A DNA stretch of 64,000 nucleotides from Callorhinus ursinus (lineage: Eukaryota > Chordata > Mammalia > Carnivora > Otariidae): assembly GCF_003265705.1 (NCBI RefSeq), contig NW_020313288.1:934839-998838 (forward strand), in the 5' to 3' direction. Below, one piece after another: positions 13,701 through 62,488 of the stretch (positions are counted from its first letter, which is position 1; each line of letters opens with the position of its first letter). The notes beneath the pieces were generated by a model. The model did not search any database. It had not been told where the DNA came from and worked only from the letters and a program-made list of their open reading frames with translations. Both the position numbers and the translations under genes were made by a program.

Positions 13701-16700
13701 CTCAGTTGGTTAAGCGACTGCCTTTGGCTCAGGTCATGATCCTGGAGTCCCTGGATCGAGTCCCGCATCGGGCTCCCTGCTCGGCGGGGAGTCTGCTTCT
13801 CCCTCTGACCCTGCCCCCCTCTCGTGTACTTTCTCTCTCTCTCATTCTCTCTCAAATAAATAAAATCTTTAAAAAACAAAAAACAAAAAACATTTCCCAA
13901 ATGGAAGCTAGGTAATTCACGCTCTAATGGTTCAAGTGGGCCCGCAAAACCTAGAAGGGCCAACCCTAGTTCTTCAGCATTCAGAAAAAAAGGAGAGAAG
14001 GGGCACCTGGGTGGCTCAGCCGTTAAGTGTCTGCCTTTGGCTCAGGTCACGGTCTCAGAGTCCTGGGATCGAGCCCGCATTGGGCTCCCTGCGCAGTGGG
14101 AAGCCTGCTTCTCCCTCTCCCACTGCCCACTCCCACTCAAGGTCTCTCTCCAATAAATAAATAAAATTTTTCTTTTTTTTTCAAGATTTTATTTATTTAT
14201 TTGACAGAGAGATACACAGCGAGAGAGGAACACAAGCAGGGGGAGCGGGAGAGGGAGAAGCAGGCTTCCTGCCGAGCAGAGAGCCCGATGAGGGGCTCGA
14301 TCCCAGGACCCTGAGACCATGACCTGAGCCGAAGGCAGATATCCAACGACTGAGCCACCCAGGCGCCCTGAATAAATAAAATCTTAAAAAAAAGAAAGAG
14401 GAGAGAAGAGCAGACAGCGAGGGGGCAGGGAGGGCCAGGGGGGCCTGGCTGACCTGTCGACAGAGTGGTCAGGGTAGCGGCCCCGGTCCCTGTGGTCAAA
14501 GTCGTGGAAGCGGTCCTGGCGGTTGAAGTCAGAGTGGTAGCGCTCATCCAGGGCGGCCCGCTTTGCTTCTGGCCAATAGGCGTCGTCTCTCCTGGAAGAG
14601 GAAGAAAGGAGTAAGTGCAATTTCTCCTCCACTTTCATGACCTTTGGGGAAGTAGGTGAACCGGACCCTCAACTGGTCCTTGGCTCCTATTACTTCATGA
14701 GCTGAGAGGGGCTGGCAGGGGGATGTGGAATCCAACTGTAAGACTCCATTCTATTTCGTCTAACGTGCCCCGCTTCCCCTACACAGAACTTTGGTTTCCC
14801 TGATAGGAGGGCAGGTGGGCACACATGCACCTCTACAGGTCGTCTCTGGGAGTAGCACACGGCCTCGATCTATCAGGACAGCAAGCGAGAGCGGGGACCC
14901 CGAGCTCTCCTCAGCACATGGTCTGTCCTCCAACGTGGACTTGACCCAGCAGACACAAGTGCCAGGGCTTTGAGAAGCACTGGAAACATACGGTTTCAAA
15001 ACACTTAGGACCGTAATGAACTCCCAGCATCAGCATTTTGCACAAAGGCCAGAAGTCCTAAAATAACTTGAAGGCCCTCAAAAGCAGTCTTGCTGAATAT
15101 TACACGGGGACCTCTCTAACCCATGCAGTTGAGAAAAGATGAATACAAACTGTGTTTTTTCCCAAGTGGGGAGGCAGGTGGAAAAGCTTTGATCAGATCA
15201 ATGCTGGGACTACCACCCCCGACTCCCACCAGCACGTTTGAAATCAGGCCTGTTTTTCACTGGGGCTAACATTTTAGTATTCACGTCACAAGAGCATGTC
15301 CGGGAAATAAAAGAATGTTCTTCGAATAAACCGGGTCACTAGAGTGACGACAAAGCCTAGAAAGGGGGCCCGAAGGATGGGTTTCTTGGTCTCTGGCCAC
15401 CTGCTTAGTACTCGGATGTCATGTGTGGCTCTGGGAGTCTGCACTCCTTCCTCGGGGGTTTGCACTAGGACTTGAACATGAGGCTTTACTAGACACTGCT
15501 TTGCGCAACCATTTCTCCACCGACCCCTAACCATGACTCATGTTCCTGACGACGTAAAGGACATCAAATTGGGTGGTAGCATGCGCTTGTGCTGCCTTTG
15601 AAACAAAACTCTCCCATTAACATGCTCTTGGGGCCCATACCCTAGTTCTAAACGCCCCAGGCCACCACTAGGGTGGGCTGAGAGCCGCTCCACTTTGCTC
15701 CACTTACCGGCCATCCACGTCGTAGGGCCTCCGCACTGCAGGCCGCCGCTCCTGCTCGTAGCGCAGCTCCTGCTGGCGCCGCAGCTCCTCGCGCTCGCGG
15801 TGGATGCGCTCCTGCTCCCGCCGCCGCTCGTGCTCCACGTGCATGCGCTCTCGCTCCAGCCGCTCCCGCTCCATGCGCTCGCGCTCCAGCCGGTGCCGGT
15901 GGAAGGCCAGCCGTTCGCGGGCAATCTCCAGCCGCTCGCGCTCCTCCCGCTCCCACTGCGCCTGCATGCGCTGCTCCCACTCACTGCGCTCACGCACCCT
16001 GTGAGAGAGCAGCAGCTGGAGGGGCCACGGACCACCCAGCGGCTCCCAAGCCGGGAATGCAGGCCCGCCCTGGGGCTCGGCAGAAACTCGAACTCGGGGC
16101 CGTGCCTCCCCCTACGGGACTCCAGCTCTCTCAGGCCCACTGAGGAGAGGGCAAGGGCGGTAGCAGGCCTGGAATGCCAGCGCGGGCCCCGCTCCAGCCA
16201 CGTTCCTGCCCGGCGGGTCATTGGGGCAAAGAGGCGTGTGCACATAGAGGGGCAGCTAGAATAGGAGCTCAGCCTCACTCTCTGAAATTTTTTCTGGAGC
16301 TCAACATCTCATTCCATGAAACAGCCCATTAAAACTAAGCAACAGAACATCCTTTTCATAGTGAACTAAGTCTCGATGAAAACCTCTGCTTCCTAACCCG
16401 TGCGCTTCAATGAGTCACCAGGGAATGGGGCGAATCTTTGGATGCGGTTTTAGAAGTTCAGATGAGCTGACTGACCAGCGGGGGCCTGCAGCGGCAGCGA
16501 GAGGGGTCGGCAAGGCTGTGCGGGACCCCTGGCTGCTACTCTGTCGCTAGCGATAGCAACCGCACCCCAGCGCGTTTCTTCCTGGCGCCCCGTGCAGGTG
16601 ACGGCGAGCAGCCAGGGGACAGGGCTGCCGGGCTGTCTCCCCCCAGCCCTGGCCACGCACTTCCAGATACGTGTTTGTACCCGCAGAAGTGCATACTCCG

Positions 16701-22700: not shown

Positions 22701-25700
22701 ATGTGAGCCTCAAGAATGGCAAGGTGTTGTTCAGAGCAGTCACCAAGAGGGGACAATCATCTGCATGTAGAGGCCATACTACACTGGCTTCAAAACATTT
22801 TCTTCTCCAGAAAACCCCTGGTCTTACCTTCCCATATTTGCTGAAAAGATTCTTCAAATCTGTAGCTCTGGTGGTAGAAGAAAGTCCACTAACCCAGAAA
22901 TTTCTACCACAACTGCTACGACCTATTTCAAAAGAAAAGCCTGGTCAGAAACACCATACTCACAGGATCCTGAATCTTAAAGACGGAAGTCAGTCATTCC
23001 AAACCAGACACTTTCCAGTTGCCAGCACAACCCAAGTCAGCTTAGGTAGGAGGGCCTGCCCCCGTCCTCACACAACCCTTGCAAATGCACACTAGGCCCA
23101 CCAGGGCTGCGAGCAATGCCACTTACGATATAGTGAGTCAGGGGCTATTAGGACCATGGGAAGTTTGCTCCCTTAGAAAGTCACCAAATGGCATTAGGCA
23201 GCCCAGTGGGGTGGCTTCTGAACATAAAACAGCTGCTATCAGGATGAACCCAATTCAGAAGCTTCTCTTTCTTGTCACAAATACCTTCCCACCTATCCCC
23301 TGTTTGTATTCTAGGCTGCTAAGAAGGAATGTGAACCGACAAAATGTCTTGTCCATTAGCGATTTTAGTAACAGATAGTGGTGTTGATAAATCTGAAGTA
23401 TCAGGTAACCCCAAGATATCTGAAATCAGAAAAAATTTTTCCATTTACAAGTGTCACTGAGGCTAAGGAATCAGTAAATCGGAGGGTCAATCAGGATTAA
23501 GGAGCTCAAAGTGTCAAAGTGCTCTAGCCGAAGCAGGAGTCTGCTTCAGATCGATACCTTAACTCTGAGGACCTGGCTTGCTCCCTATAACCCAGAACCT
23601 GCAGAGTGAATAGCAGAGGAGTAGAGAAAGGCTTCATGAAAGGCTGAGGCAAATCTGGGTAAGAAACGCAGCACGCAATGAACTAGAACCAGAAACCCCA
23701 CTGCTGCCAAGGCCAAACATGCTCCAAGAGACCAGTGTCGCCCCAGTGACCTACCCTTTTCCTCTTTGGAAAGCCTTTTTGTATCCGAGTCATCTTCGAC
23801 AGAACTAGAGACAAAAGATAATGTCACTCCAGAAGGAAAAAGCAGAGACGAAACAAACTCAAAATTATAAAACACGTGCTGAGGTTGCATACCTACCCGA
23901 AATTTAGTTCTGAAAAAATGATACCCCGACAAACTTGTATTGGAAATCTGACCTAACCATAAGATTTCAGACCCATAGGAGTTAATTAATTCTGCTGGGC
24001 TAAAGATAATTAGGAAGATTTAAAGAAAACAACCGTGATAGGTTGAGAAAAGAAAAAAGATTATGTAATCAGTTTAAAATAAACAAAGAGAAATAAAACA
24101 TTGCTTAGAAGTAAACTACAATTGCATCAGTCTGGCTGGCCAATTGCAGAAAAAACAGCTTATGTGTGTCATTAAATGACCAATGAAAAGGAGATAGCGT
24201 CTGGTCTAAAACTGAGAAAAAACAAACCTCATTTTCTGATCAGCGCCCTCACTGGCTGAGGACTCTTTAGGAGCCGGAGGGACTTCATTACAAGCTTCAA
24301 AAGCAAACTTCTTCACGTCTTCTTTGCTATCTCTGGGGTCTGGGCTTGAGGCTTCCGGGGGCGCTTCCGCGGCCTCCTCGCTAGAGGCTTCCGTGTGCTC
24401 TGAGGCTTTACTACTCTGCTCAACTGGCTTCTCTAGCCCTACAGGCTCACAGTCCGTCCGCGCGCCATCGCCTGGCTGCTCCACGGGCTCCCTTTTCACT
24501 ACCGCTAACAGGGTGTCTGCCCTGCTCGACTGAGCTTGTGCTGTTGACTCGCTGGCCAAATCTAAATCACCCTCCTCCGGATGGGCGCTGCCAAAAAGGT
24601 CCTCTTCCTCCGCAAGCTTTCTGTCTGGCCCCACGCTACTTGTATCCTGTGCAAAGGGCTGCTCCAGCTCGGAACCTTCTTCTTTTACTGGCTCAGATTT
24701 ACAAGTTTCCCCCAAAATGTCGAGTATTTTCTCATTTTCTACGGATTTAACAGGAATAGAATGGCACAAGGTTTAATTACCAGGGAAATAAAGCAATCAC
24801 AAATGCGGAACTGGCACGGCTGCCACACTAACACGAAGAGAACTGCTAGCTACACAGAGATTGGAAAACCCGCGGGTACACAAAGTTACACCGGTTACAC
24901 TACCTGCACTCCAACCGACTGCTACAGTAAGCCGCTACGCTACATGGAAGAGAAAAGCATCCCAGAGATTTAACCCCCAAAACCTTCTGGCTGATTCTTG
25001 ACAGTCTTCATTCTGTCGTCGTTTACATAGGACTCTTCCGAATTTAGCTTCCAAAGTCCAAGGTGCTTAACTGAATGTATCACCATTCACTGAACAGCTC
25101 AATTTCCAAATTTCTTTGAATTTCTTTTAACAGAACAGTCCAACATGAAAACCAGAATCTCTTCCATCGGTGCTCTGAGATATTTGCAGTCCAGAAAGTG
25201 AATAGCATTTGTTTGGAATTCTCATGAAGAAACTCTTTCCTCTTCTGGAATCCAGTTATGTCTCAATGTTTTAAAATGCATCTCCCTACAGCTACCTGCA
25301 CTGCCTGAATTAAAAACCACAAAGTTAAGACACTGCCCAATATCACAAGATCTGTTTTGTGGGGAGCACAGGTATTAGCGCGTGAGAGGCATCATGCAAA
25401 CTCTTTCTACGTTCGTTTAAGTGCCGTTTATGTTTAAAAAGGCATGAGATCGTTTCATCTCATCAATACATTCTGTAACATGAGAAGTGAGCCACTTTCA
25501 CAGATCTGGTGATATGGCTGGGTTTCCAATCTCTATGATCCTGGTATGTTCTGGATCGTAAACCTTTAGAACAATGTATACTACGGTAAGGCAACTTTTT
25601 AAAATTAAAGAATTTAAATTAGAGAAGGTGGAAAGCTAGAATGGTTCCAAACCCCCGCTGGTAAGTTTTTCATTTAACAGTACCTGGCTCCAAGGATGGC

Positions 25701-45599: not shown

Positions 45600-46080
45600 T
45601 CCAGGGACCCTGGCTCCGCCGCCCACTTCGCACAGAACCGGGCCGGTTTTATCTGGGCACCTAGCACAAAATGGCGCCGCCTGCGAGGGAACCGCTCCAG
45701 CCGCCCTGGCGCGCCTCCCTTCTGCGCAGGCGCACCCGGCGCGGAGCCGACGCTGCCGGTCGCGTGTGCACATGCGTGGTGAGAGCTCACAGGGATGTGC
45801 GCAGGCGCATTGCATCTCGCCGGCCTCCCGCCGCGAACGGCCGTGACACATGCGTGCTGCAATTACGGCGCCTGCGCGTTGTGGTGGGGAACGTGCGGTT
45901 GGTCGACGCGCGAGCGCGCGTGCTGTTAAGAAAGTTGGCATGTGCGGCACGCATGCGCTGCCGGAAAGCGGGGCGGGAGGAAGCGAGTGCGTTTTCCTCT
46001 TAGGCGGCGCCATTTTGTGCTCAGAGCCGCTACAGCCGCCGGGGGTGTGGGAAGTGGGTGGCGGGGACGCGAGACCTGGG
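45600..46080. promoter_or_regulatory. SAFB/SAFB2 bidirectional CpG-island promoter, mirror-symmetric
   Basis: 481 bp separate the two divergent start codons. The sequence is CpG-dense and TATA-less, with NRF1-type TGCGCAGGCGCA at 45723-45734 and 45798-45809, GCGCCTGCGC at 45868-45877 and GCATGCGC at 45951-45958. A 17-bp perfect inverted repeat, CACAAAATGGCGCCGCC at 45666-45682 and its reverse complement at 46003-46019, holds YY1-like AAAATGGCG cores on both sides. The symmetry axis near 45841 is also the midpoint of the two ATGs, as expected if the promoter arose with the inverted gene duplication. Human SAFB and SAFB2 also share a short GC-rich bidirectional promoter. Confidence 0.9.
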
Positions 46081-49000
46081 ATGGCGGAGACTCTGGCAGG
46101 GTCCGGCGAGTCGGGTTCTGGCACAGCCGCTGTCGGGTCGGGTACCTCGGAGGCCGGGACGCGACGGCTGAGCGACTTGCGGGTGATAGACTTGCGGGCG
46201 GAGCTGAAGAAGCGGAACCTGGACACGGGCGGCAACAAGAGCGTCTTGATGGAGCGGCTCAAAAAGGTGAGGCGGCTCGACGTCCCGGGGTGGAGCAGGA
46301 GGCCGGGGCACGCCCCCGCGCCGACCTGTCACCGCGATGCCCGGACGCGGGCGCTCCTCCACCATCGCCCCTTGTGACCGACCCCGGCCCGAGCTCGCGG
46401 GGACCAAGGGGCCCGGCTGTGTGACCTTGGCCGTCCCCGCCCCTCTCTGTGCTTCGCCTTTGATCCTCCTTCCAGCTGGTCGCCTCAAGAGTGCTGAAAG
46501 CGCGTCCTTTTAGCCGCCGGGTGGCCGCCTGGACTTTTTTTCCGGGCTCCAGTTGGGAGACTCGGTTCCGTGACCTTGGATAGGTGCCTTCTCCCTGCGC
46601 CTCAGTTTCCTCTCCTGGGCAACGGATGAGTGAAGAGTCTTCGCGGTCTTGCAGGAGAGGGGGTTGGGCTTGTTAATACTCCAGGACTTTTGCTCTTGTC
46701 GCGCCCTCTCCTCCACCGCCGTTCTTCCATGGCTTCTGGTTGGTGCCTCGTAGTTGTCCTCGCTCTACCTGAGATGTCTCCCCAACGTGCTTTCTAGAGT
46801 GTTGCTCCATCTCTTTGCTCTCCTGCACCGTTTTGTGTTTATGCCCCAGCTGGCCGCACTCAACCCCACGTTGAGTGTGGAGGAGTAGCTGTCGCCCCGA
46901 CCAGAGCAAGCTCGTTGCAGAGCTGGGGTTTACCATTGAGTGCCTAGTCCTGTGCCAGTCCGGAGGAAGGTGCTGAGCAACCCTACACACACACCCCCAC
47001 ACCCNNNNNNNNNNCACACACCCCCACACCCACCCCCACACCCCAGTCTGTCTGGTGGGTTTTCTCCCCAGAAGTCAAGCACCCACGGCTTGTGGAACAC
47101 CGCTCAGCCCTTTACAGATGGTGGACCTCGTGCGGCATCTCTCTTACTGTTACCGTTATTAAAGTGGAGGGTTGGGCAATTTCTAGTTCAAGGGCCATTT
47201 TGGAACGGGTCATTGACCTGCACCCTGGAGCCCCAGTTCGCACATCCCTTTGTTTTTTGTGCTTAGGGCCCAGAGAGAACCAAGTTGTGCTAGGTTCGTC
47301 CTGTGCCTTTTGGGCTGGCAGCCCAGATAGCAGAACCAGAGTTGTTGCTCTTTGCAAGGAAGTGTTTGACTTTGTTTGCTGGGAAGTTGTTACTTAACAA
47401 AGAACAATGTGTGCCCTGCAGGTCTCCACAGTGTTGTAAAGTTTCATCTCTTCTTAATAGGCGGTTAAGGAAGAAGGGCAGGATCCTGATGAAATTGGTG
47501 TTGCGTTGGAAGCCACAAGCAAGAGGACAACAAAGAGGTGTATTAAAGGTATCTGCTTGTACTTATTGCTGCTGGAGGCCTGAGCATGTAGAGAACTTAG
47601 TTACAGATCAGGTTTTTTAACACCATTTCTGCCTTGTGGGCCCAGAGAATGTCTTTGGTCTTCATTGTTCCCATCTAACAAGTGAGCTCGGTTTTCGCCA
47701 CGTTACTAGTAGTTCTGTCAGGAGTGCTGGGAGGAGTAGAGAGATGTGCAAATGTTACGTAAATTAAAACTGAAACGTGTGTTAAAGACATTTTAGCTCT
47801 TGTCATTGGGATTCAAAAACAACCAGAGTAAGGCATGCTCTTAAAGCTGCTCTGAGCATCCAAATACACTACATGACTTTCTTCCTGAGAAGTTGAAAAA
47901 CGGGGTTTTAAACCAAAGAAAATGACACCATTCTGAGACAGAGTAGAACCCCCTATCTCTAAGGATACAAAACAGATCTTTGGGGGCGCCTGGGTGGCTC
48001 AGTCGTTGAGCGTCTGCCTTCAGCTCAGATCATGATCCCGGGGTCCTGGGATCGAGCCCCACATCGGGCTCCCTGCTCGGCGGGAGGCCTGCTTCCTTCT
48101 CTCCCACTCCCCCTGCTTGTGTTCTCTCTCTCGCTCTCTCTCTGTCAAATAAATAAATAAAATCTTTAAAAAATAAATAAACAAATAAAAAAGAATTAAA
48201 AAAACAGATCGTTGGAGTATTTTCATGCAGCCTATTTTTTTTAACCAGTGAGGTTTTGTTTTGTTCTGTTTTGTTTTTTTAAGATATTATTTTGAAGCAA
48301 TCTCTGCATCCAACGTGGGGCTCGAACTTACAACCCTAAGATCAAAAGTCATGCTCTACCAACTGAGCCAGCCAGGTGCCCCACAGTGAGATTTTTTTTT
48401 TTTAATTGAGATATACTTCACATCTATAGAATTCACCCATTTACCAGTGTACACTTCATTACATTTTAGTATATTCACAAAGCTATGCAACTGTCAACAC
48501 TATTTAATTCTGAAACGTTTTCATCGTCACAAAAAGAAGCCCCCATGCCTATTAGCACTTGCTCCCCATTTCCCCCTCCTGCAGACTCTGGCAGTATGTA
48601 ATTGACCGTTCTATTTCGTGTAAATAGGATCATGCAATATGTGGTCTTCTGTGCCTGCTTATTCTGTTGAGCATGTTTTCAAGGTTCATTCACTTTGTGA
48701 CGTAGATTAGTGCCTCATTTCTTTTTGTGGATGGTACTAGCTAATTTTGGAAGCATTTAATTCCATAAAACTTTGAAACCTTGTTACCCTCCCTGGCTTT
48801 CATCCTCATTTTTATATGGGTGAGGACAATATAATTAGGACCTTCCCCGTGATGGGGATTATTTTCTTGAAAGGTGCCAACATAAAAATTGTCATGGCTG
48901 GACATACCCTGTTCATCTGAAGAAGAGTTAAGCTTAGGCCATGGAGGACATGCTTAGAAAGGGAAAAGAAACCAGCTTGTAGCCTTTTCAGTAACTCTAA

Positions 49001-52000
49001 TTTACTTTTTATAAGGGCTTTCCTAGAAGGACTTTTGCATGACTCATCTGTTTAGAACTTTATGTGTGTTTTACTTATTTATTTTTTAGAATTTTATTTA
49101 TTTGACAGAGAGAGAACGAGAGGAGGAACACAAGCAGGGGGAGTGGGAGAGGGAGAAGCAGGCTTCCCGCCGAGCAGGGAGGCTGACATGGAACTCAATT
49201 CCAGGACCCTGGGATCATGACCCGAGCTGAAGGCTGCCAAACAACTGAGCCACCCAGGCACCCCTTTATGTGTGTTTTAAAAGTTTAAACTTTTTAGTTA
49301 GGTTGTATAAAGGAGTTACATTTAAGGTGGATTTTAACACCTTGATGTGTTTTTGCTGCTCTTGTAGTGGTCAGGTATAAATGCTGACTAGTCAAGTGAG
49401 TGCAGACTGAGAGGTGTGTGTCAATTTAAAAGTTCTTAGTGGAAGTTTTTAAGGTAGGTGCTCCTTTAAAACTTGAGAGGTTCAATGCTTACTAATCAAA
49501 GTGTTCTTGGCTCTTAACAGCGATCTTTGCATCATTAGACAAACCAAACCTTAGCCGAGTGCTTCCAGTGTGTGTCTGAATGTCTGGATTATAGTTTAGG
49601 TCACGGTAAAACTGCCTGGAGTTACCATTTTGTCAAAAAAGCTTTGATAGTACTTACTTTTGTTTTTATAAAGGGATGTTGTTGCCAGTATAGATGTAGC
49701 TGGGATTAGAAGGGCACTGGTCCTTTCCCTTTCCGTTTTTACTGAGAAGTCACCAAAGGCCCAGACAGGAAACAGGTGGCCAGGGCCCTGGGGCAAAGGA
49801 CAGCTCCTACAGGTGGTTGAGCTACCATGTTCTTTGTAGGTGTCTGCACACATAGTTACATGAAACACTGGACCCTCATGGTGTCCTGTTCGAAATTAGG
49901 TCTTTAAGATTACATAAAAGTAAAAAGGGTGCTTGGGTGGCTCAGTCATTAAGCATCTGCCTTCAGCTCGGGTCATGATCCCAGGGTCCTAGGATCGAGT
50001 TCCTCATCGGGCTCCCTGCTCAGCAGCAGGGAGCCTGCTTCTCCCTCTCCTGCTCTCCTAGCTTGTGCTCTCTCTCTCTTTTAAATAAATGATCTTAAAA
50101 AAAAAAAAAAAAGTAAGTTAAATTTTCTGAGAAAAAAACTTCATTATGAATTAGAACAAGAGAACCTCTTCTTGTCTAACTCATTTAAACAGGCAAAATT
50201 TTTGAAGCTTGTTGGGTATGTTTTGGAAGATTACAATTTTGAGTTAGGTTTTCTAGCATCTTTGTCCCCCACCCCTTCAGCTTTTAGGTAGCTGAAACCA
50301 GGTCCTTGGAATTGGGTTCTGGCCTCTCTGCCCAGCATTTGTCATCCCCCCTCTCCTTTAGGGCACTTTTCAGTCTGCATCTGCATGTCTGTTGACATCG
50401 TTGTGAGTACTGCCTGCTATTTAAAGGCCCTGAAAGTGGGTGCTGCTACCACACATTTTTAGGACCTCTTTTAAGAGCTGAACCAAATTCTCATGTGTTA
50501 AATGCAGCTAATAAACCAACACCTAGTGGTGTTGTGGGGAGTATTAACATAGAGAGCACAGTGCCTCACACTTGGTAAAGCCCCACATCTTGCATGAGTA
50601 TTCATAATGATGGTGCAGAAGGCGCTTCAGGGGTACACGCTGCAGTTTGGGTCTTTACTCAAAGATTGATGTCTCCTGTTTAGTTTTCTCATTTCAAAAA
50701 ATTATAAAAAGGGTATTTCTAGACACTTTAGAAGTATGCATGTGAAAATGAAATTATCTCTAATGTTATCACCCTGTATTTTAACCCCTGTTGGTGACTG
50801 TCTGAGTTGTTCCTGTGTGTGTTTTATAAATGCATCTTCACACTTGATCGCATACATGCCGTTTAATAAAAGGAGAACTACTCTATACGGCTTTTTTGAT
50901 TTTGTGGGCATTTTCCTGTGTCATTCAATATTCTTTGGAAGCATAATTTTTTTTGAAGTTGTAAGACACTGTATGGTGGGCCATGGTGTTTTGCAAACTT
51001 GGCACTGTTGACAGTTTGGGATAAGTAATCCTTTCCGGCCGGGCACTATCCTGTGCAGTATCTTATGTTGAACAGCATTCCTGGTCACTACTGTAGCGGT
51101 TGGTAGCATCCCCGAGTTCTGACACCAGAAATGTTTCTAGTCATTGCCAAATTCCGCCCCACTTCCCCTTTTGAGGACAACTGGTATCCCACATACAAAC
51201 AGACTGTCGTGATTTGTTTCCCTTTTGAATGTTCGGGCTGGCTACAGTTTCTAGATAGATAACTTAAGTTTTTAATTCCTCATCAAACATTTAAGTGCAC
51301 GCCCTTATTGGGAGGATTTCTAGAATAAAAAGTATGCACGTTTTTGAGGCCAGAACCTGAGTATTACCTGACTGAAAAATTATTTTGTCATTAGGACAAA
51401 AGATGGAGGAAGAAGGTACAGAAGACAATGGCCTGGAAGAAGATTCCAGAGATGGGCAGGTATGTGGCATCCACAGCAGAGACACTAGCAGGAGCTCCTT
51501 GACCAGCCACCTGGCCATTGACCCCTTTCATTCTCTCGACAGGAGGATATGGATGCAGGTTTAGAGAGCTTGCAGAACCTCGACATGATGGATGTGGGTG
51601 TGTTGGAAGAAAGCGAAGTTGAGAATAGCAGTGCTCCCGACTTTGGGGAGGACGGCGCTGACAGCATTCTCGGTTCCCTTTGTGATAGCAAAGAATACGT
51701 GGCGGCCCAACTGCGAGAGCTCCCGGCGCAGCTCACAGAACATGCTGTAGGTAACTTGAAGACATGGTGGAATGTGCCAGTGGCCCGGGGCTCCTCAGGG
51801 CTCCCCGGCGCTTGTGGGCTGCCGCTGGGAGTCAGAGCACGCTGGCGGTTGATTAAGTAGTGCACCACCGCGTCAGCAATCACCAAAAACATGGAGTTCC
51901 GTGTCTCAAGCCTCGTGGTAAATTATATCCGTTTAAACCGCACGTAAGTCAGATTAACGAACAGCTAACTTCTCTATGACCCTGGGGAGTATTTTGATAA

Positions 52001-55000
52001 AAGGGTGGGAGGCCCTTCTGCAGCATGAGTCGTAAAAGGCTGACACTGTTGGTGAAAGTATTTTCCTTTGGAAAACAGGAAACAGAAAACAGTTGATAAT
52101 CTCAGCATTCGGTCATCCTTTTGGGTTTTTTTTAAGATGTGCTCTAGGCACGAGATTAGATGGTTCTATTAAAAGACGGGAAAGAGTGAAGGAAAGTATT
52201 CGTGCCCTCAGAAACACCCCTCCCATGAAAAGAAAACCACTCTTAATGTCCTCGTATATAAAGAAGAGCTTGAATTCTGTTTCCGATACTGCTTTCTCAA
52301 GCTTTCGCTTCTAGTATTTGGCAGAGAACTCTGGTGGCCATCTAAAACTGATTGCCATTTTAATCCTACTACCTTGGCATACGCAGTCTCTTGGTTTCCT
52401 TGGTATTTTTTGTGTTTTGGTTTGGTTTTCTGTTCTCTCTTTCTCTCTCTTTTTTTTTAAAGGCACTAAACTGGGCAGGGGGAAGGGGGGCCCTTGTAGG
52501 ACTGGACCTTAAACATTAAAGTTCAAAAGTCACAAACTCCAAACGTCACTGCCCCTCAGCCTAGGGTGCCATTGAGCAACTGACTTGCTGGTCTTGGCCT
52601 CTCTCAGTGTGATCCTGCTGTGTGTTAATTATTTCCAGAGCATGGACTTGGCTTCTTACCTTTTGGTTAATCCAAGCATCCCGGTCATAAGCTTCAAACC
52701 TGGGAAAGGGAAAAAAAAAATACACTTGGGAAGGCATGTCTTTGTATTTCACTTAAGAAGGTAAAAAGCTTTCAAATCGAGTGACATTTAAGATAGTAGT
52801 TCAGTTAAATGTTTTAAATAAAGCACCTTAGATAAAAGTGTCCAGTTATTGTTATTTTTCAAAGTATCGTTGCCAAGTAAAATCGGAGAAGTGTTAAGTT
52901 TTTCCTTTTGCTTTTGAGCTCTGCTCTGGAAATAGTGTCTGGGCCACGTATGTGGACCACCAGGAAATAGACGCTGCCTGGGAACTGAAAGTGTACCTCC
53001 CGGGCCAGTGCTGACCGAGCACCTGCTATCTGTGAGACCCTCTCAGAGGTGCAATACCGCCCAGTCGTGGAGCAGGCAGGGAGGCCGGCGAGAAACCGAA
53101 TAATCCAACATTGGACTTGCAGATGGTGGTGGGCAGCTTGAGGGAAGTAGACACATGGGTCCCTTAGAAACTGGTGAGGTGCAGGCCTTGGAATTCACAG
53201 CTCTGTCTCCACTGAGTGGTTCTCTGTTTTGTCTTTCAGGTGGATGGGGAGGGCTTCGAGAACACTTTGGATGCTTCATCATTGGACTTCAAAGTACCTC
53301 CGGTAAGATACCATTCTGGTGCTGCCTGGCTGGAAATGTTATGTGCGTGGTTGATTTTCCGTAGTGAAAAAGGATGTGTGTCTGTGTAGAAATGATTCTG
53401 TGTAAAAATGATTCGTAAAATGAGCTGAGTGCCTGGGGTAAGAGGTTGAGCCAAACAAGTACAGTACTACTGTTTGCATTCGGTGGGGACGGTGTTCATA
53501 GCCAGCAAGAAAATGACTAGAAAAGTTTGTTGAGGGAGAAGTTGAGGTGATTGGGCCGTAAGGCTCTTAGAGGAAACCCCACCCAAATTGAGGTCTGTCC
53601 CATGGGTCTGGAGTTTGCCCAGTGAAGGGGAAAAGAAGACCTTGGGCAAGGAGGGAGAGTGGCTGAATGTAGGGACGGAGGACGCAGGGTGGGGGCAGAG
53701 GGGCAGGGGTGAGGTTGCAGACATGGATGGGCCTGACTACCCGCGTCTGTGGATTAGGGATAGGGTTTGGCCCATTGTCTTAAGTACAGTGGGAGGTCAT
53801 GGGAAGGTTTTGGGAGGAGTGCACAGATGGTTTTGTTGACAGGTTCCAGTTATAAATAACAGTTTATTTGGGGAGAAGTCGATCTTAAATCTGGTATGAG
53901 ATATAAAACGTTCGCCGTCTGTGCGACCTTTTGCTGTGGCTGTCTTTGCCCTCTCCAGAGGCCACTAGGTCAGCTCAGACTTGGGGTGGGGTGGCCAGAC
54001 CCTCCGGGGAGAATTGAACAGGCCGAGCGTCACTGCCGCCTGCCTGGCTTTGCTGGGGAGAGGCCAACAAAATGGGCTTGTCCTCACCGAACCATCCCAG
54101 AATGGAATACCGTCGTTTTGAGTGGAGAGAGTTGTTTGAAACAAGTGTTTATTCACGTGTGATTGAAGCTGCGTCTGCCAGGGAAGTGTGTTGGCCCAGT
54201 TTTTAAGTGCTTTGTGGAATTTTTTCTCTTTCCTTTTTTAAAACAGGATATTGAAGAACCTCTATTGGAGCCAGGTACTGATAAGAGAAACACGACAGTT
54301 AATGGTTTGAAAGTTTTCCCACTCTTTTTTTCAATCTGTCTATATATTCTAAGCTGTGTATGGTCGTGTAAATGATTTTAATGGTGGACAATCCAGATCG
54401 TACAAGGATCAGAGATTGGAAACCCACTCGTATCACCAGATCTGTGGAAGTGCCGTTCTGGTTTCTGGAGGTCAAATGTATTTGGTGAGATGTAGTGATT
54501 ATTTTCATCTCTCTAACCACGTAGAGGGGCATTTAAGTAATTCCCCCGGTGATTCTTCCATGTGTTTCTACACATGAAACAGATCTTGTGATATTTTGCT
54601 GCAGTCTTTTTAATTACTACAGTTAAGGCAGGATAAAGCGGTTGTCAGGGCACTTATAACCCGAGAAGTGACTGGATTCCAGAAGAGGAAACAGAGTCTC
54701 TTCAGGAAAATTTCCCAACGCATTACTCCCCTTGTGGACTGCGTTTATCTCCCACCTCGGAAGAGTTTCTGGTTTGCGTATTGGACTGTTCTGTTAAAAG
54801 AAATTCAAAGAAATTTGGAAATTGAGCTGTCATCAAATGGCGATCGCATTCGGTTCGGCACCATGGACATTGGAAAACTAAGTCTGAAGACCCACACTTG
54901 AACAAAAACATGAAGAAGACTGTCGAGAAGCAGCCACGTGGTTGTAGGTGTTTGAATCTGTGGGGGCCTTTTCTCTTCCATGTAGCGTAGCGGCTTACTG

Positions 55001-58000
55001 TAGCAGTCGGTTGGAGTGCAGGTAGTGTAACCGGTGTAACTTTGTGTACCCGCGGGTTTTCCAATCTCTGTGTAGCTAGCAGTTCTCTTCGTGTTAGTGT
55101 GGCAGCCGTGCCAGTTCCGCATTTGTGATTGCTTTATTTCCCTGGTAATTAAACCTTGTGCCATTCTATTCCTGTTAAATCCGTAGAAAATGAGAAAATA
55201 CTCGACATTTTGGGGGAAACTTGTAAATCTGAGCCAGTAAAAGAAGAAGGTTCCGAGCTGGAGCAGCCCTTTGCACAGGATACAAGTAGCGTGGGGCCAG
55301 ACAGAAAGCTTGCGGAGGAAGAGGACCTTTTTGGCAGCGCCCATCCGGAGGAGGGTGATTTAGATTTGGCCAGCGAGTCAACAGCACAAGCTCAGTCGAG
55401 CAGGGCAGACACCCTGTTAGCGGTAGTGAAAAGGGAGCCCGTGGAGCAGCCAGGCGATGGCGCGCGGACGGACTGTGAGCCTGTAGGGCTAGAGAAGCCA
55501 GTTGAGCAGAGTAGTAAAGCCTCAGAGCACACGGAAGCCTCTAGCGAGGAGGCCGCGGAAGCGCCCCCGGAAGCCTCAAGCCCAGACCCCAGAGATAGCA
55601 AAGAAGACGTGAAGAAGTTTGCTTTTGAAGCTTGTAATGAAGTCCCTCCGGCTCCTAAAGAGTCCTCAGCCAGTGAGGGCGCTGATCAGAAAATGAGGTT
55701 TGTTTTTTCTCAGTTTTAGACCAGACGCTATCTCCTTTTCATTGGTCATTTAATGACACACATAAGCTGTTTTTTCTGCAATTGGCCAGCCAGACTGATG
55801 CAATTGTAGTTTACTTCTAAACCATGTTTTATTTCTCGTTGTGTATTTCTAATGGGTGAATCTATTTCTTTTCTTTTTCTCAACCTACTATGGTTGTGTT
55901 CTTAAATTGTTAACGGCTATCTTCAGCTAAATCCAGTTGACTTTTAAGAATCTGACATTGTATTTTGGGGGTCACATTTCCTAGAGAAGCTTGCAAAGGT
56001 GTCTTAAAATTTTATTTCAGACTAATTTTCTGGTAGGTATTCAGTTTTTAGCACATACCATACTTTTAATTTAGTTCTCTTTCGTTTTGTTCCCATCTGA
56101 GTAACATTCGCTTTTGTCTCTAGCTCTTTTAAGGAAGAAAAAGATATAAAGCCAATCATTAAAGATGAAAAAGGTATGATTTAACTTATGTGGCAGGGAC
56201 CCACCTACGGATCCCTTACTTGGGGAGGGAGGGACTTTCAGGTACCCACACTGGGGATCCGGTGGTTGGTTTCATGGAGGATTAGTGGAAGTAATCATCT
56301 AACAGTATTTTGAGAGACTAGATTGAAATGTTGGTGAGCTTTTGTGGTTTATGTCTCTGTTGTGGTTTTCGTTTATGGGATAGTGAAAATCCCAGTGCAC
56401 CACGTCACATTACAGTCCCATTCTGCCCGTTAGAATAACAACAAGATTGCAGAAACTGCCATCCCGGTTGAGAATTGGTCATCAAAATTCATTTTCGTTT
56501 GTAACTGACGAGGACCTGATGATTCCTTGAGTAAGGGAACGGTTTCTGCAACCCGTATTTTTTGCCTTCTGTCCTCTAAATGCTTAGACCAGGAGAGTTG
56601 AAGTGGGAGGTAGCTGGGGTCTAAGAGCGGGCTGTGTCCTGAGGCAGGTCGTGCTCCCATCCGGCCTGGAGGCCAAGCCTGACCCTCTCCCTCCTGCAGC
56701 AGGTCGCACCAGCAGCAGCTCTGGACGGAACCTGTGGGTCAGTGGACTGTCCTCCACAACTCGAGCAACGGATCTGAAGAACCTCTTCAACAAGTATGGA
56801 AAGGTGTGTGCCCCACCCCCCCAACTTCTCGCCACCCAGCCTCTGGCGTTAAATAATGAACTCAAGACTATGGAGAGTTCTTTCTTCTATTGTTAGTTTT
56901 GTTGGTGGTCTTTTTTGTGTGTGTGTGTGCGTGTGTGTCTGTGTTTTTCCCTTTAAAAAAACAAAACCACAAGGGAGAAAAGGCTCACCTGGTTTTGGGT
57001 AGTGTGCCTTGTTTTCCTCACTGAGAGTGGGTAATAGGCAGCAGATAGTTCATCGTGTCACAGAAAATGTATATAAATAGTTACAGTCTGAACATTCTTA
57101 TCATTCTAATTTCTCTTAACCTCATTGTTTGGCTCATACAAAACTTAAAGCCTGCATGCTGAATTTTTTTCCCAAACAATAAGTGAAGAGTTGGCTTTTA
57201 ATATTCCTGCATTTTTAGGGGTGCCTGGGTGGCTCAGTCGTTGAGCATCTGCCTTCGGCTCGGGTTGTGATCCCAGGGTCCTGGGATCGAGCCCCGCATC
57301 GGGCTCCCTGCTCAGTGGGGAGCCTGCTTCTCCCTCTCCCACTCCCCCTGCTTGTGTTTCCTCTCTCACTGTCTCTCTCTCTCTCAAAAAATAAATTTAA
57401 AAAATCTTAAAAAAAAAATTCTTTCATTTTTAAATATACCGTTCGAGAACAGGAACATACTGGTTTAAGAATAAATCAACAAATACTCGGTCCACAGGGG
57501 CAGAAAGAAAATAATACCATTCAGAAGCCTTGCAGGGACTCGAGGACATTTAAAACCCGATTTTTGTTGTCTTGGAATTAGATAATGAAACAGTCTCACC
57601 TTCAGCCAGGAGGACCACCCTGGTCCTATGGGTGCCTCTGGGGGCGTGGCACCCCTTGGCAGGGATTTGCTGCAGGGAGTCCAGGCAGAGCTTTGCTGGA
57701 TGTCCTGGCTGCCGTGGGCATTTCTCTGCCCAGGTCTGTGTCCCCAAGTAGGAGTTGGCGAATGTGTTCGTGACTTAAATGGACAGGACCCAGAAGAAGC
57801 ATTCATGAGGTGAATTTTTCTTCACGGCGAACACCTTTCAGAAGGGCTTAAAACTGGGAAGCTGCAACCCATCTTCAGTAATCTTGACTTCCTTCTTGAT
57901 TGAGGCGCCAGTTGTGAAGCGCAGCAGCTGTGAGGGCGCTGGTCTAGATCTTACAGGCTGCTGGAGAGATCATTTAAGTAAATACAGCACGTTACAAGGG

Positions 58001-61000
58001 ATTCATTTAGGGATGTTACAGCCTGCCATCAGTGTGTGGGACGGAGACCGAGTTTAGATGGGGGTCGTGGGTTCAGCGCACCTTGCTGAGTAAGTGCTCT
58101 TTAAGCCAAGGCCTGAGTAATGATAGAGTTGGCCCTGCCCACAGAGCTCGGCCTTGAACTAAAGCCACGGGACTTAGGCAGGTGGTGGGACGAGTCTGTA
58201 ATTTGGGTGAACTAATCAGGGACGCCTGAGTGGCTCAGTTGGTTGGGCTTCTGCCTTTGGCTTGGGTCATAATCCCAGGGTGCTGGGGTCAAGTCCCATA
58301 TCGGGCTCCCTGCTCAGCGGGGAGTCTCCTTCTCCCTCTGCCTGCCTCTCCCCCTGCTTGTGCTTGTGCACTCTTTCTTTCTCTCTTACAAATAAACAAA
58401 CTCTTAAAAAAAAAAAAAAGATGAACTTATCAAAGGCTGCTGTGAAGGTGGAGGGCAAGGCCAGGGACAGGTGAGGTGGTCTTGGATTCTGCTTTCAGGG
58501 CTGTTGGAAGTGATGTCCTTGCAAGGATAATTAGTTTGATGGGAAGGTCACGTGATCCCATCATTGGCTCAGCCCCCTGACCTTGAAGAGAAGGAAGAAG
58601 GGGAAGCTCCCTCTCTGAAAGAAGTGACTCTCTCAGAATAGTCTGTCCGCTTTGGCCCTGTATGGGGTGCTCTGGACAGGGGGGGCTTTCCTTTGCAGGG
58701 AGAGCAGTCTCCTCCATATCTGCAAGTGGAAACATGGACACCAGGGTCTGCTGGGAACGTGAAGATGATGGACGCCCCCCCCCCACCCCACCCGCATCGT
58801 CTCACAGCTGGGGACCCTGAGGTCCAGAGAGAGGAGAGGTCTTGCTCACGTTGACCTACTGAATCACAGCTGGTCAGAGCCAGACCCACTAGGGCTCTTG
58901 TGTCCTGATCAGGGGCTCTGCGCTTGCATAGGTGCTGGCTCTACTTTCATTTCTCTAGAATGTCCTGCAGGAACGTTTACGTTTAACGCGAGCATCGTAT
59001 AGTGGGGTTTAAATCTGCCATCTGGCTCCCTGTCTGCTCTCTGTTCTGTTTCTTGGATCACTTGCTTCTCTGTATTTCCTGCCTTTTGAATTGAGGTGTT
59101 TTTTTGTTTGTTTGTTTTTTGTTTTAAGATTTCATTTATTTGACAGAGAGCAACAGCCAGAGAGGAAACACCAGCAGGGGGAGTGGGAGAGGAAGAGAAG
59201 CAGGCTTCCCGCGGGACAGGGAGCCCAGTGTGGGGCTCGATCCCAGGACCCTGGAATCATGACCTGAGCCGAAGGCAGACGCTTAACGACTGAGCCACAC
59301 AGGCGCCCCGAGTATTTTTTATTTTAAGATTTCATTTATTTATTTGATAGATAGCAAGAGCAGGAACACAAGCAGGAGAAGTGGGAGAGGGAGAAGCAGG
59401 CTTCCTGCCAAGCAGGGAGCCCGATGTGGGGCTCCATCCCAGGACTCTGGGATCATGACCTGAGCTGAAGGCAGACGCCTAACTACTGAGCCACCCAGGC
59501 GCCCCTGTGTTGAGTATTTTTTATGGTTTGTCGCTTATTAGCTGGAACTAGTATATGTCACTAGTGTTGCTGTATCCTGGTTTGTTGAGGGATAAAGTCC
59601 CCTTGCTTATTTGAGTTTTTTGTGTTTCTTGATGGGGGCATCTATCCCTGTGCACTTCGCGCTTAACTGCTGTTGCTGCGCCCTGTAGGTTTTGCTATGT
59701 TACCGTTCCTTTTCATCTGTCTCAAGGTATTTGTTTGTCTTTTGGTTTCTTCCTTGAGCTGTTGGTTGAACTCTAACATTTTTCTTTGATAGCTGCGCAT
59801 AGGAGTTCTATCAAAAGGCTTAATGCAGTCTGTCCTTCAGTGATATTCCAGTTCCCGGGGGGCGTTCGAACCTGGAGACGGTGCGCCGCCATCCTTCCCT
59901 CCCAGCCTTTGTGGTGGTGTCGTCACGGCTTTAATAAACAGCATAGTACATTCTTGGTTCATTGATATGTTGGTTAGTTGTTTGGATTTTGGTGTGTTTG
60001 TGGGTTTTGTGGGGGGGTTTTTTTGTTTTTTTGTTTTTGTTTTTGTTTTAAACATTTATCTTTTAAAGAGATACGTAAATAAGGAAAAGCACGGGCTGTT
60101 AGTTAACTCCGTGTTTATCTTTTGGGGTGCTCTTTACTCCCTTATACCCAAGTTCCCATTGGGTATTGTTTTCCTCCCTCTAAACTTTTCTTAATAGTGC
60201 AGTGTTGCCAAGGATGAATTTCTGCATTTTTTGTAGATCTGAAAATCATTCTTTTGCCTTCACTTTGAAAGCTGTTTTTGCTGGATGCAGAATTCTGGGG
60301 TTGGTTATTTATTTATTTATTTTTGGTCTAGACAGCAGTGCTGCTCCTTTCTTCTGGCTCATGTTGGCTCACCAGTTGGCTGTGGGTTTCACCTTTGCTC
60401 CTTAGGGCACAGGTGTCTTTCTCATCTGGCTTACCTGGAAGGTTCTCTTTATCACTGGTTTGGAGCAGTTCATGCCACAGATGTGCTATGGTTTCATCCG
60501 CTAAGGTTTTCTGTGCTTCTTGCTTTTGACGACGCCACAGGTGGTCCTACAGCCCACTGATGTTCTGGTTCTGTTTTGGTTTGTTTCCGTCTTTTTTCCT
60601 CTGTTTCATTTTGAGTAGCTTCTGTTGCTATGTCTTCAAGTTCCCTCATCCTTTTCTTTCTTTTTTTTTTTTTTTTTTTTTTGCAGTATCTGCTGTCCGT
60701 CCCATCTCATGTATTTTCCATCTCCAGAATTTGGGGTCGGGTGTTTTTAAATATCTTCTCTTTGTTTACCTAACATGCTCAGTGGTTTCTCCCAACTTGT
60801 TGAACATCTAGGATATAGCTAAAATAACTTTTAATATCGTCATGCATTCTGGATCTCAGTTGGTTGGTTTGTTTTCTTCGTTAGAGTCATTTTCTCATTA
60901 CTTGGTTTACCTCGTCATTTTTGATCGGACACCAGACGTTGTGACTTTCGTGTTGTATTCTAGTTATTCGTGTGTCCATGTCAGTGTTCTTGAGCTTTTG

Positions 61001-61453
61001 CTGGGACATAGTTCAGTTACTTGTTCCTCCCCAGGTTTGCTGTTACGGTTCAGGTCAGCAGAGCAGCCTTAGTTCAGAGCTAGCTTTGTCCACTCCCCAG
61101 GCAGCACCCTTCTGAGGTCTCAGCCTGATGCCCCATGAATTGCAAGCTTCTCCATTCTGGCTGTCGGGTTCACTCTGTAAAAAGTGAATTATTTGAGAAC
61201 CCTGAGCCTGGGGATTGTTTGCTCTTAACAGGTGGTTTTCTCCTTTGCCTCTCACATGGGTGTTGCTAAGAGGCCCTTTGCAGCTCTCTGGGGCTGTCTT
61301 TATGCAGCACTTCCTCTCCGGTACTATGATTTCTTGCCGCCTTGATTTCTTCAGACACTGAGCTGTGCTCAGCTCTCGGGTACCACCTCCCACCCTTACC
61401 TCAGGTCCTCCCTGCCCTTGGCCGGGAACCTCTAGGAAGTAAGCCAGGGTGAC

Positions 61454-61492
<39 letters not shown>

Positions 61493-62488
61493 GTCCCTTG
61501 GAGGGGTCACCATCCTGTGTGGCCTGGTGTACAGTGTCTGAAAACCCTGGTCGCCTACGTTTCCTCTAATTTGTGAGGTTTTTTTTTTAGGCAGCGGGAG
61601 GGGTAATGCTTGGTGCGCCAACCTGTCTGGAAATTGAAATCCAACTGGAGAAAATGATCCAAGTGGGCAGTACTTTTGATTAATCAGTTGTGGTTTGTGG
61701 AGTTTTAAATGTCTTTAGCTGGGATGCCTGGGCGGCTCAGTCGGTTAAGCGTCTGCCTTTGGCTCAGGTCATGATCCCAGGGTCCTGGGATCGAGTCCCG
61801 CATTGGGCTCCCTGCTCCGCGGGGAGCCTGCTTCTCCCTCTGCCTCTACCTCTCTCTTTCTCCATCTCTCATGAATAAATCTTTAGGGGGAAAAAAAAGT
61901 CTTTAGTTTTTCCTGTTCATATTTTGTCACTCTGAGGGCTGATCTTGTATTGAAAGCAATTGTATTTTGATAGGATGAGGTAGAACCACTTTAATAACTG
62001 ATTGTGGCAAACCAACAATTTGTGGAGAAGTAAAAACTAGTGGAAAGAATTCTGATGATCAGGTAACTGCTAGTCATTTTTGACAAATTGTGTGGTGATT
62101 TATATGGGAAGGTAAGCGTGTCCTTTCTCATGAAGGTTGTCGGGGCCAAAGTGGTGACCAACGCCCGCAGTCCCGGAGCTCGGTGCTATGGATTTGTTAC
62201 CATGTCGACATCTGATGAAGCTACAAAGTGCATCAGCCATCTCCACAGAACTGAGCTGCATGGAAGAATGATCTCCGTAGAGAAGGTGAGGCGGCTCTTG
62301 CCTGTTACAACTTACCGAGTTCATGAGCGAGGAGACCTGGATCGTGGGCCATTTCTAATCTGTGTTGTATTTTAGGCCAAAAACGAACCTGCTGGGAAAA
62401 AGCTGTCTGACAGGAAAGAATGTGAAGTGAAGAAAGAAAAATTATCTAGTGTTGACAGACATCATCCTGTGGAGATCAAAATTGAAAA
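46081..62488 (+). CDS. SAFB2: SAFB2, scaffold attachment factor B2, exons 1-11 (3' part outside window)
   Basis: Paralogue of SAFB; a nuclear and partly cytoplasmic DNA/RNA-binding corepressor. Exons: 46081-46266, 47461-47548, 51395-51459, 51543-51746, 53240-53302, 54247-54274, 55187-55697, 56124-56173, 56703-56803, 62136-62285, 62376-62488. All have GT-AG junctions and matching phases. Exon sizes parallel SAFB (65, 63, 28, 511, 50 and 150 nt are shared exactly). The visible 1559 nt encode about 519 residues: SAP domain ([20 protein letters not shown]), acidic region, RRM, and the start of the K/E-rich linker ([20 protein letters not shown]). DIEEPLLEP and [17 protein letters not shown] mark it as SAFB2. 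The K/E-rich, R/E-rich and Gly-rich regions must lie to the right of 64000; 62489-64000 is intron. A 10-N gap sits in intron 1 and does not touch an exon. Confidence 0.95.
46985..47044 (+). repeat. (CACACCCC)n-like minisatellite around the gap
   Basis: CA/C-rich units (CACACCCCCACACCC) on both sides of the N run in SAFB2 intron 1; the true length is unknown. Confidence 0.92.
47005..47014. other. Assembly gap (10 N)
   Basis: Ten Ns within the CA/C-rich repeat. The fixed short length suggests a gap of unknown size rather than ten ambiguous bases. Confidence 0.98.
47983..48200 (+). repeat. Carnivore tRNA-Lys SINE
   Basis: Plus-orientation copy in SAFB2 intron 2 with 10-bp duplications AAAACAGATC at 47969-47978 and 48201-48210 and a long AAATAAAT tail. 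Confidence 0.95.
48275..48382 (-). repeat. tRNA-Lys-like SINE head, older subfamily
   Basis: The reverse complement reads GGGGCACCTGGCTGGCTCAG, TTGGTAGAGCATGACTTTTG, then GGGTTGTAAGTTCGAGCCCC, closely following tRNA-Lys. A-box- and B-box-like Pol III elements are both present. Only a short tail follows (AAAATAATATCTT). Confidence 0.85.
48405..48725 (+). repeat. Old LINE-1 3' fragment
   Basis: 'ttaattgagatatacttcacat', 'agaattcacccatttaccagtg', 'agtatattcacaaagctatgca' and 'aagaagcccccatgcctattag' match the widespread L1M-type 3' sequence. Confidence 0.75.
49074..49263 (-). repeat. Carnivore tRNA-Lys SINE, intact duplication
   Basis: Minus-orientation copy with a perfect 16-bp duplication CTTTATGTGTGTTTTA at 49058-49073 and 49264-49279. 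Confidence 0.95.
49927..50112 (+). repeat. Carnivore tRNA-Lys SINE
   Basis: Plus-orientation copy (GGGTGCTTGGGTGGCTCAGT) with a CAGCAG duplication in its body and an A-run tail. Confidence 0.94.
50990..51180 (-). repeat. MER5A-type hAT DNA transposon
   Basis: 'ttggcactgttgacagtttggg', 'tcctgtgcagtatcttatgttg', 'cattcctggtcactac', 'ccagaaatgtttctagtcattg' and 'ttttgaggacaactgg' follow the MER5A sequence (in reverse orientation) in order. Confidence 0.8.
54968..55820 (+). repeat. SAFB2: 853-bp inverted repeat, right copy (SAFB2 exon 7)
   Basis: Reverse complement of 24105-24957 with no mismatch found. It includes exon 7 (55187-55697), 219 bp of intron 6 and 123 bp of intron 7. Confidence 0.95.
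55187..55697 (+). CDS. SAFB2: SAFB2 exon 7: acidic region with SUMO motifs
   Basis: 511 nt identical to SAFB exon 7, so the encoded 170 residues are the same in both proteins, including VKEE and VKRE sumoylation motifs (Lys 230 and Lys 293 here, one less than SAFB because exons 1-6 total 3 nt fewer). Acceptor CCGTAG, donor ATGAG|GTTTGT. Confidence 0.96.
56703..62285 (+). CDS. SAFB2: SAFB2 exons 9-10: RNA-recognition motif
   Basis: Exon 9 (56703-56803) gives [20 protein letters not shown] through NKYGK; exon 10 (62136-62285) gives [20 protein letters not shown] through MISVEK. Exon 9 is 6 nt longer than in SAFB (two extra serines before the RRM); an AG three bases upstream (CTGCAG|CAG) is an alternative acceptor. 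The RRM-splitting intron is 5.3 kb here against 1.7 kb in SAFB. Confidence 0.94.
57218..57418 (+). repeat. Carnivore tRNA-Lys SINE
   Basis: Plus-orientation full-length copy in SAFB2 intron 9 with tail ATAAATTTAAAAAATCTTAA. Confidence 0.94.
58219..58419 (+). repeat. Carnivore tRNA-Lys SINE
   Basis: Plus-orientation copy. GGTGAACTAATCA before and GATGAACTTATCA after are an aged duplication. Confidence 0.93.
59118..59309 (-). repeat. Carnivore tRNA-Lys SINE
   Basis: Minus-orientation copy with head GCCACACAGGCGCCCC, in SAFB2 intron 9. Confidence 0.94.
59323..59505 (-). repeat. Carnivore tRNA-Lys SINE
   Basis: Minus-orientation copy directly after the previous one. GAGTATTTTTTAT is repeated at 59310-59322 and 59512-59524. 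Confidence 0.94.
59560..61060 (-). repeat. Degraded LINE-1 (antisense)
   Basis: T-rich text with L1-antisense phrases: 'ctggatgcagaattctgggg', 'ggttcatgccacagatgtgc'-like segments, 'atcggacaccagacgttgtg' and 'cttgagcttttgctgggaca'. The T-run at 60661-60682 is part of it. No intact frame. Confidence 0.6.
61458..61488 (+). repeat. (TG)n microsatellite
   Basis: About fifteen uninterrupted TG units in SAFB2 intron 9. Confidence 0.97.
61719..61898 (+). repeat. Carnivore tRNA-Lys SINE
   Basis: Plus-orientation copy (GGGATGCCTGGGCGGCTCAG) with duplication GTCTTTAG at 61711-61718 and 61899-61906, about 240 bp upstream of RRM exon 10. Confidence 0.94.

Follow-up and report, generated by a model that had tools for sequence, protein, structure and literature searches.

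Evidence for recurrent gene conversion of exon 7 between the head-to-head genes SAFB1 and SAFB2 in mammals

The window analysed here, i.e., the whole stretch of 64,000 nucleotides from Callorhinus ursinus, carries SAFB1 and the first part of SAFB2 in head-to-head orientation (Table 1), and all modelled introns of the two genes were of the GT-AG type. When the two genes were compared exon by exon, the identity was 0.59 to 0.81 for exons 1-6, 0.56 to 0.79 for exons 8-11, and 0.69 to 0.83 for the aligned part of exons 12-21, so that the 20 exon pairs other than exon 7 ranged from 0.56 to 0.83. Exon 7 was also the only SAFB1 exon longer than 300 bp, the next longest being exon 15 with 291 bp. At the end of SAFB1 exon 15 (15708-15720) the window reads PYDVDGRRDD in comparison to PYDLDRRDD in human SAFB1, and is thus longer by one residue where exons 15 and 16 join. 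The protein encoded by SAFB2 exons 1-6 was 100% identical over the scored region to records from Callorhinus ursinus and Zalophus californianus, and 99.5% identical to those from walrus and elephant seal. In human, the region between the two genes is reported to be capable of bidirectional promoter activity (PMC4582101).

Table 1. Coordinates of the gene models and of the matching stretches in the window
Feature	Position	Strand	Basis or remark
SAFB1 gene, 21 coding exons, 916 aa	9539..45599	-	ATG at 45599, TAA ending at 9539; complete open frame, GT-AG introns; named by scaffold attachment factor B1 matches
SAFB2 gene, coding exons 1-11 in window	46081..62488	+	GT-AG gene model; protein matches named scaffold attachment factor B2
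SAFB2 exons 12-21	67194-79021 (window-relative)		Beyond window end, same contig
SAFB1 exon 7, 511 bp, 170 whole codons plus split ends	24228..24738	-	GT-AG boundaries, open frame in 21-exon model
SAFB2 exon 7, 511 bp	55187..55697	+	GT-AG gene model
Inter-ATG segment, 481 bp	45600..46080	.	Predicted from its position to be a shared promoter
Conversion tract, SAFB1 arm, 853 bp	24105..24957	-	853/853 match to reverse complement of other arm; adjoining base differs each side
Conversion tract, SAFB2 arm, 853 bp	54968..55820	+	853/853 match to SAFB1 arm
50-bp exact intron 6 match outside tract, SAFB1 side	25094..25143	-	Exact-run comparison
50-bp exact intron 6 match outside tract, SAFB2 side	54781..54830	+	Exact-run comparison

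The two arms of the tract are 30,010 bp apart in inverted orientation, and in both genes the tract is composed of the whole of exon 7 with 219 bp of intron 6 and 123 bp of intron 7 on its two sides, so that 342 bp of identical DNA is intronic (introns and silent sites were compared in the seal alone). Of the 1682 alignable positions from exon 6 through exon 9 that are not part of the tract, 1021 matched between the paralogues, i.e., 0.607, and at this identity the chance of a run of 853 matches is about 10^-185. The flanking introns varied from about 0.4 to 0.9 identity per 50 columns, and homology at this lower level extended past both edges of the tract. The sequence-only reading had described two mismatch-free copies of intron and exon with sharp ends, about 30 kb apart and inverted, between neighbouring exons that had diverged; all of this was reproduced, with the exon identities being 0.79, 0.56, 0.75, and 0.79 for exons 6, 8, 9, and 10, respectively.

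The longest exact run between the two genes outside the tract was only 50 bp, in intron 6 (Table 1). It is found amid lower identity and may be what remains of a longer conversion in the past, or a conserved element of the intron. Runs of 40 to 37 bp ranked next; these fall in sequence that is matched at many other places of the window and were read here as repeats. A 35-bp run in exon 15 came after them. No third place for the tract DNA or the exon-7 protein was found in the unmasked parts of the 2.67-Gb genome (1504 contigs), some parts of which read N. A search of Rfam gave no match at gathering thresholds. Further along the window, positions 59115-59505 hold two head-to-tail copies of a 196-bp repeat with 84% matches, SINE-like in this reading.

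The absence of differences over 853 bp bounds the divergence of the two arms at under 0.35% (95%). With rates of 1.0-2.2 x 10^-9 per site per year, the last round of conversion would be less than about 0.8-1.8 million years old, and with the introns alone (0 differences in 342 bp) less than 2 to 4.4 million years old. GC enrichment is a usual, supporting but non-decisive, mark of conversion. The GC content of the tract introns was 0.470 and 0.366 in comparison to 0.39-0.42 and 0.33 elsewhere in the same introns, a small rise, and the GC3 of exon 7 was 0.53. A CpG or GC hotspot as the cause was dropped, as 9.7% of 632 equally sized windows had an observed/expected CpG ratio at least as high as that of the tract (0.66), which was thus unremarkable.

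The comparison was extended to other mammals by means of proteins from named records. An initial set of 32 hand-picked SAFB1/SAFB2 pairs was reduced by three and enlarged by five to give the final 34, which include the seal of the window, one marsupial (wombat), and one monotreme (platypus); the pairs were chosen among the best 120 of 1957, 594, and 530 matches, which makes the set non-exhaustive, with no mouse or rat among them. The pairs removed were Homininae/human, Pan, and Bos grunniens, each with a broken or cut exon 7 in one model; outside the broken stretches their letters agree by eye, and the exon-7 block of human SAFB1 matches that of gorilla SAFB2 at 170/170 residues. The pairs added were Ursus maritimus, Myotis myotis, Tupaia, Vombatus, and platypus, and three of the 34 (Mustela, Equus, and Ochotona) combine two species of one genus.

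The results showed that the protein block encoded by exon 7 was letter-identical between SAFB1 and SAFB2 in 24 of the 34 pairs. Three of the other 10 (Macaca nemestrina, Ursus maritimus, and Ochotona) were cut models or a two-species pair in which all aligned residues agree, and the remaining seven showed 1 to 11 residue differences plus small indels: one residue each in Condylura, Elephantulus, and Vombatus, one residue and an indel in Marmota, three residues in Pipistrellus (167/170), four in Nycticebus (166/170), and 11 in Jaculus (174/185), together with a length difference of six residues. Additional checks outside the 34 pairs gave 162/170 for Colobus, 79/80 for a partial Myotis davidii block, and 170/170 for Papio. 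The 130-residue flanks, calculated for the 32-pair set, had a paralogue identity of 0.41 to 0.67 on the N side and of 0.71 to 0.81 on the C side, with one outlier each, a cut bear model (0.31) and a macaque model (0.49), respectively; over N flanks of up to 212 residues the values were 0.67 for platypus and 0.77 for wombat. For the 22 pairs with long models, the median paralogue identity was 1.00 for exon 7, 0.94 for the next exon, and 0.74 for exon 15. Between species, the mean identity of the exon-7 block was 0.80-0.81 (22 pairs), with a range of 0.47 to 0.98 for SAFB1, and its length, cut models aside, ran from 169 to 191 residues; in beaver, tenrec, and elephant, the poly-E inserts of the two genes were equally long.

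To show how these similarities are distributed among genes and species, trees were built from exon 7 and from its flanks. In the exon-7 tree, the two copies grouped exclusively with each other in 26 of the 34 pairs, and for the other eight the distance between the two copies was 0.0 and their spot was common to a close relative (seal with walrus, the two bears, porpoise with narwhal, and the two macaques); no pair among the 34 was split by gene. The flank tree separated 34 SAFB1 from 34 SAFB2 rows by one label change with a support of 97, and the N-only and C-only flank trees separated 33 SAFB1 from 34 SAFB2 rows by one change each with a support of 93 each; the American black bear SAFB1 model, which has no proper N part, was kept in the exon-7 and flank trees and omitted from the latter two. 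Paralogues within a species are thus more alike than orthologues in exon 7 only, while the flanks group by gene. In a turtle-rooted tree of 20 rows (2 turtle and 18 mammal), SAFB1 (support 93/89) and SAFB2 (87/86) were sister groups, and platypus and wombat fell inside both, while in the same set exon 7 required nine label changes for nine species. Both the flank and the turtle-rooted trees place the duplication before the species compared, with moderate support in the case of platypus, and the SAFB1/SAFB2 duplication therefore most likely predates the platypus split as judged from these sequences. That split dates to about 180 million years ago or more. The exon-7 branch at the base of the placental mammals in the turtle-rooted tree was 0.63 changes per column in comparison to 0.11 and 0.23 for the flanks.

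Some records departed from this pattern of labels. Among 229 proteins, 15 carried mixed labels, and 11 of these, all of them macaque, chimpanzee, or marmoset proteins, combine an N part from one gene with a C part from the other (P0075, P0078, P0081, P0087, P0098, P0102, P0104, P0105, P0109, P0175, and P0183). Among the hybrids, of which P0087, P0102, and P0109 were examined, those of macaque run in both directions, i.e., SAFB2 N part with SAFB1 C part and the reverse. The accession style suggests that the 11 are likely transcript-assembly chimeras that jump within the common exon, although rare inversions would look the same. The other four were the bear model that lacks an N part, two marsupial SAFB2 records in which the N part is slightly closer in score to SAFB1, and P0200 from Prolemur simus, a species for which a normal SAFB2 (P0173) is also recorded. 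P0200 has a SAFB2-type N part and a SAFB1-type C part and is either a misassembly or a real hybrid. P0200 and the 11 hybrid-looking proteins stand outside the 34-pair set. In ruminants, P0001 (Ovis aries) and P0002 (Muntiacus) each contain two SAFB1-type copies per protein that agree fully in exon 7, and the block of the sheep is the same as that of goat SAFB1 and SAFB2; a third SAFB copy may take part in homogenisation there. Extra SAFB2 copies have been reported on gorilla acrocentric chromosomes (PMC12767296).

Taken together, we consider it very probable that exon 7 has undergone long-term concerted evolution, in which gene conversion kept copying it between SAFB1 and SAFB2 through mammalian history, and the seal tract is the newest round of this process. 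The conversion is regarded as recurrent because SAFB1 and SAFB2 agree fully or almost fully in exon 7 in each of the 34 pairs, and as judged from the sequences this exon was most likely homogenised in placental mammals, wombat, and platypus since the duplication. Points that speak against this reading are the pairs with residue differences, the weakness of the GC enrichment, the hybrid-looking records, and the moderate support for the placement of platypus. The sequence-only reading had proposed a very recent gene conversion; conversion and the youth of the tract are retained, but a single event is not, since the same exon is affected in every pair. Copying by way of mRNA was ruled out because introns are part of the tract.

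As for the mechanism, breaks in one arm would be repaired with the other arm, inverted and 30 kb distant, as the template. The repair would mostly proceed without crossover, because a crossover that became fixed would exchange the N-terminal halves of the two proteins, and no such exchange is seen in any of the 33 pairs that could be judged on both sides. A fixed inversion between the arms was ruled out for these 33 pairs, for which the N-only and C-only trees both separate the genes by one change. The process could be self-sustaining, as each event would restore a long uninterrupted match. In yeast, the minimal efficient homology length is reported as about 200 bp, with far higher rates for paralogues with more than 250 bp of identity (PMC3924818). 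Judging from this one locus and the yeast figure, exon 7 alone may have stayed above the length needed for conversion, because no other SAFB1 exon exceeds 300 bp, while conversion would have died out elsewhere. A more far-reaching version is offered tentatively and is on balance doubtful: that this is the longest-lasting single-exon concerted evolution known in mammals, begun before the platypus split, as a self-sustaining island where the exon exceeds the needed homology length, and that the inverted arms sometimes cross over and flip the 30-kb promoter segment, giving SAFB1/SAFB2 hybrids which are purged by selection.

Selection for a common exon 7, for example as a SUMO/co-repressor module, is the main alternative to the length threshold as the cause of recurrent conversion, and we regard it as rather unlikely. 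Lysines 231 and 294 of the window SAFB1 lie in exon 7 within putative motifs of the SUMO-acceptor type, and K231 and K294 are the reported SUMO acceptors of SAFB1, important for HDAC3 recruitment and repression (PMC4402547); the tract spans the exon with both acceptors, and selection of this kind was proposed for similar pairs (PMC2720389; for TLR1/TLR6, PMC2077338). Both motifs were present in 30 of the 34 pairs. However, the two genes have a common block also in the four pairs with one motif missing (elephant, rabbit, pika, and platypus, one of these being a two-species pair), and exon 7 changes fast as a unit. Whether selected or not, the process would keep the same regulatory linker with K231 and K294 in both proteins. 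SAFB1 and SAFB2 null mice are reported to differ (PMC4582101), and since the linker is common to both proteins, such differences must originate elsewhere in the proteins or in their expression.

It is quite improbable that an assembly which placed one consensus at both sites produced the 853-bp identity, in full or in part. The tract is longer than a short read, the arms are 30 kb apart on one molecule, and the region has gaps, namely 10 N at 47005-47014, the only N run in the window and near neither arm, and 400 N past the window end. Yet a collapse requires prior near-identity while the surroundings are about 61% identical, other records (SAFB1 and SAFB2 of walrus, and SAFB2 of Zalophus and Callorhinus) encode the same 170 exon-7 residues as the window, and the same pattern is found where both proteins come from equally long contigs, e.g., 125 Mb in platypus. 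The sequence-only reading had named an assembly from one read set as its alternative; this does not fit a pattern repeated in many separate records, although a minor contribution from assembly could have erased a few true differences in the seal.

Purifying selection alone holding exon 7 alike in both proteins is scarcely credible in spite of the SUMO acceptors inside the block, as the intronic 342 bp are identical as well, and as the block varies between species in sequence and in length and therefore no particular sequence is being held; the earlier statement that protein selection does not explain the identity thus stands. Equally little credence is given to a recent segmental duplication or shuttling of exon 7 into one gene in the seal lineage, which would produce a single sharp block of identity, but exon 7 lies between corresponding flanks in the two genes of all 34 pairs, homology continues on both sides in the seal, and the high identity of the whole unit expected of a recent segmental duplication was not seen around the tract.

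Similar to SAFB, the pairs BMP8A/B, DDX19A/B, and TUBG1/2, reported to be under concerted evolution for more than 100 million years (Carson and Scherer 2009, PMC2720389), are described as old duplicates less than 250 kb apart which are partly homogenised, introns included and in a mosaic manner, in every mammal examined, and BMP8A/B is also inverted. One difference is that those duplications were dated before the eutherian radiation, while the SAFB set has a marsupial and a monotreme. That screen is reported to have required more than 97% identity over two consecutive exons plus the intervening intron (PMC2720389), which a single-exon tract fails, as seal exons 6 and 8 illustrate with 0.79 and 0.56, and SAFB is absent from the main text of Carson and Scherer 2009. 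TLR1/TLR6 likewise have a 300-residue region in which paralogues are more alike than orthologues in all nine mammals, with nearly identical converted regions per species (PMC2077338), but these are tandem genes with conserved functional domains in comparison to a fast-changing linker in a head-to-head pair. HSPA1A/HSPA1B are duplicates in conserved synteny kept alike within species by gene conversion, although they are reported to have duplicated in the lineage to placental mammals and to be under purifying selection over the whole gene (PMC5865164). No prior report of gene conversion or concerted evolution of SAFB1/SAFB2 was found in the literature searched.

In practice, short reads, peptides, antibodies, guides, and siRNAs directed against exon 7 would not discriminate SAFB1 from SAFB2; SAFB2 was not found in the mappability literature among the matches listed, and SAFB is unnamed in the main text of PMC10611741. 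According to Carson and Scherer, it remains unclear why conversion lasted for more than 100 million years in a few pairs (PMC2720389). With one exon homogenised and 20 others diverged in placental mammals, a marsupial, and a monotreme, SAFB1/SAFB2 offers a direct test of the length threshold versus selection: a diverged exon 7 introduced in one copy would end conversion if the length threshold holds, and would cost fitness if selection does.
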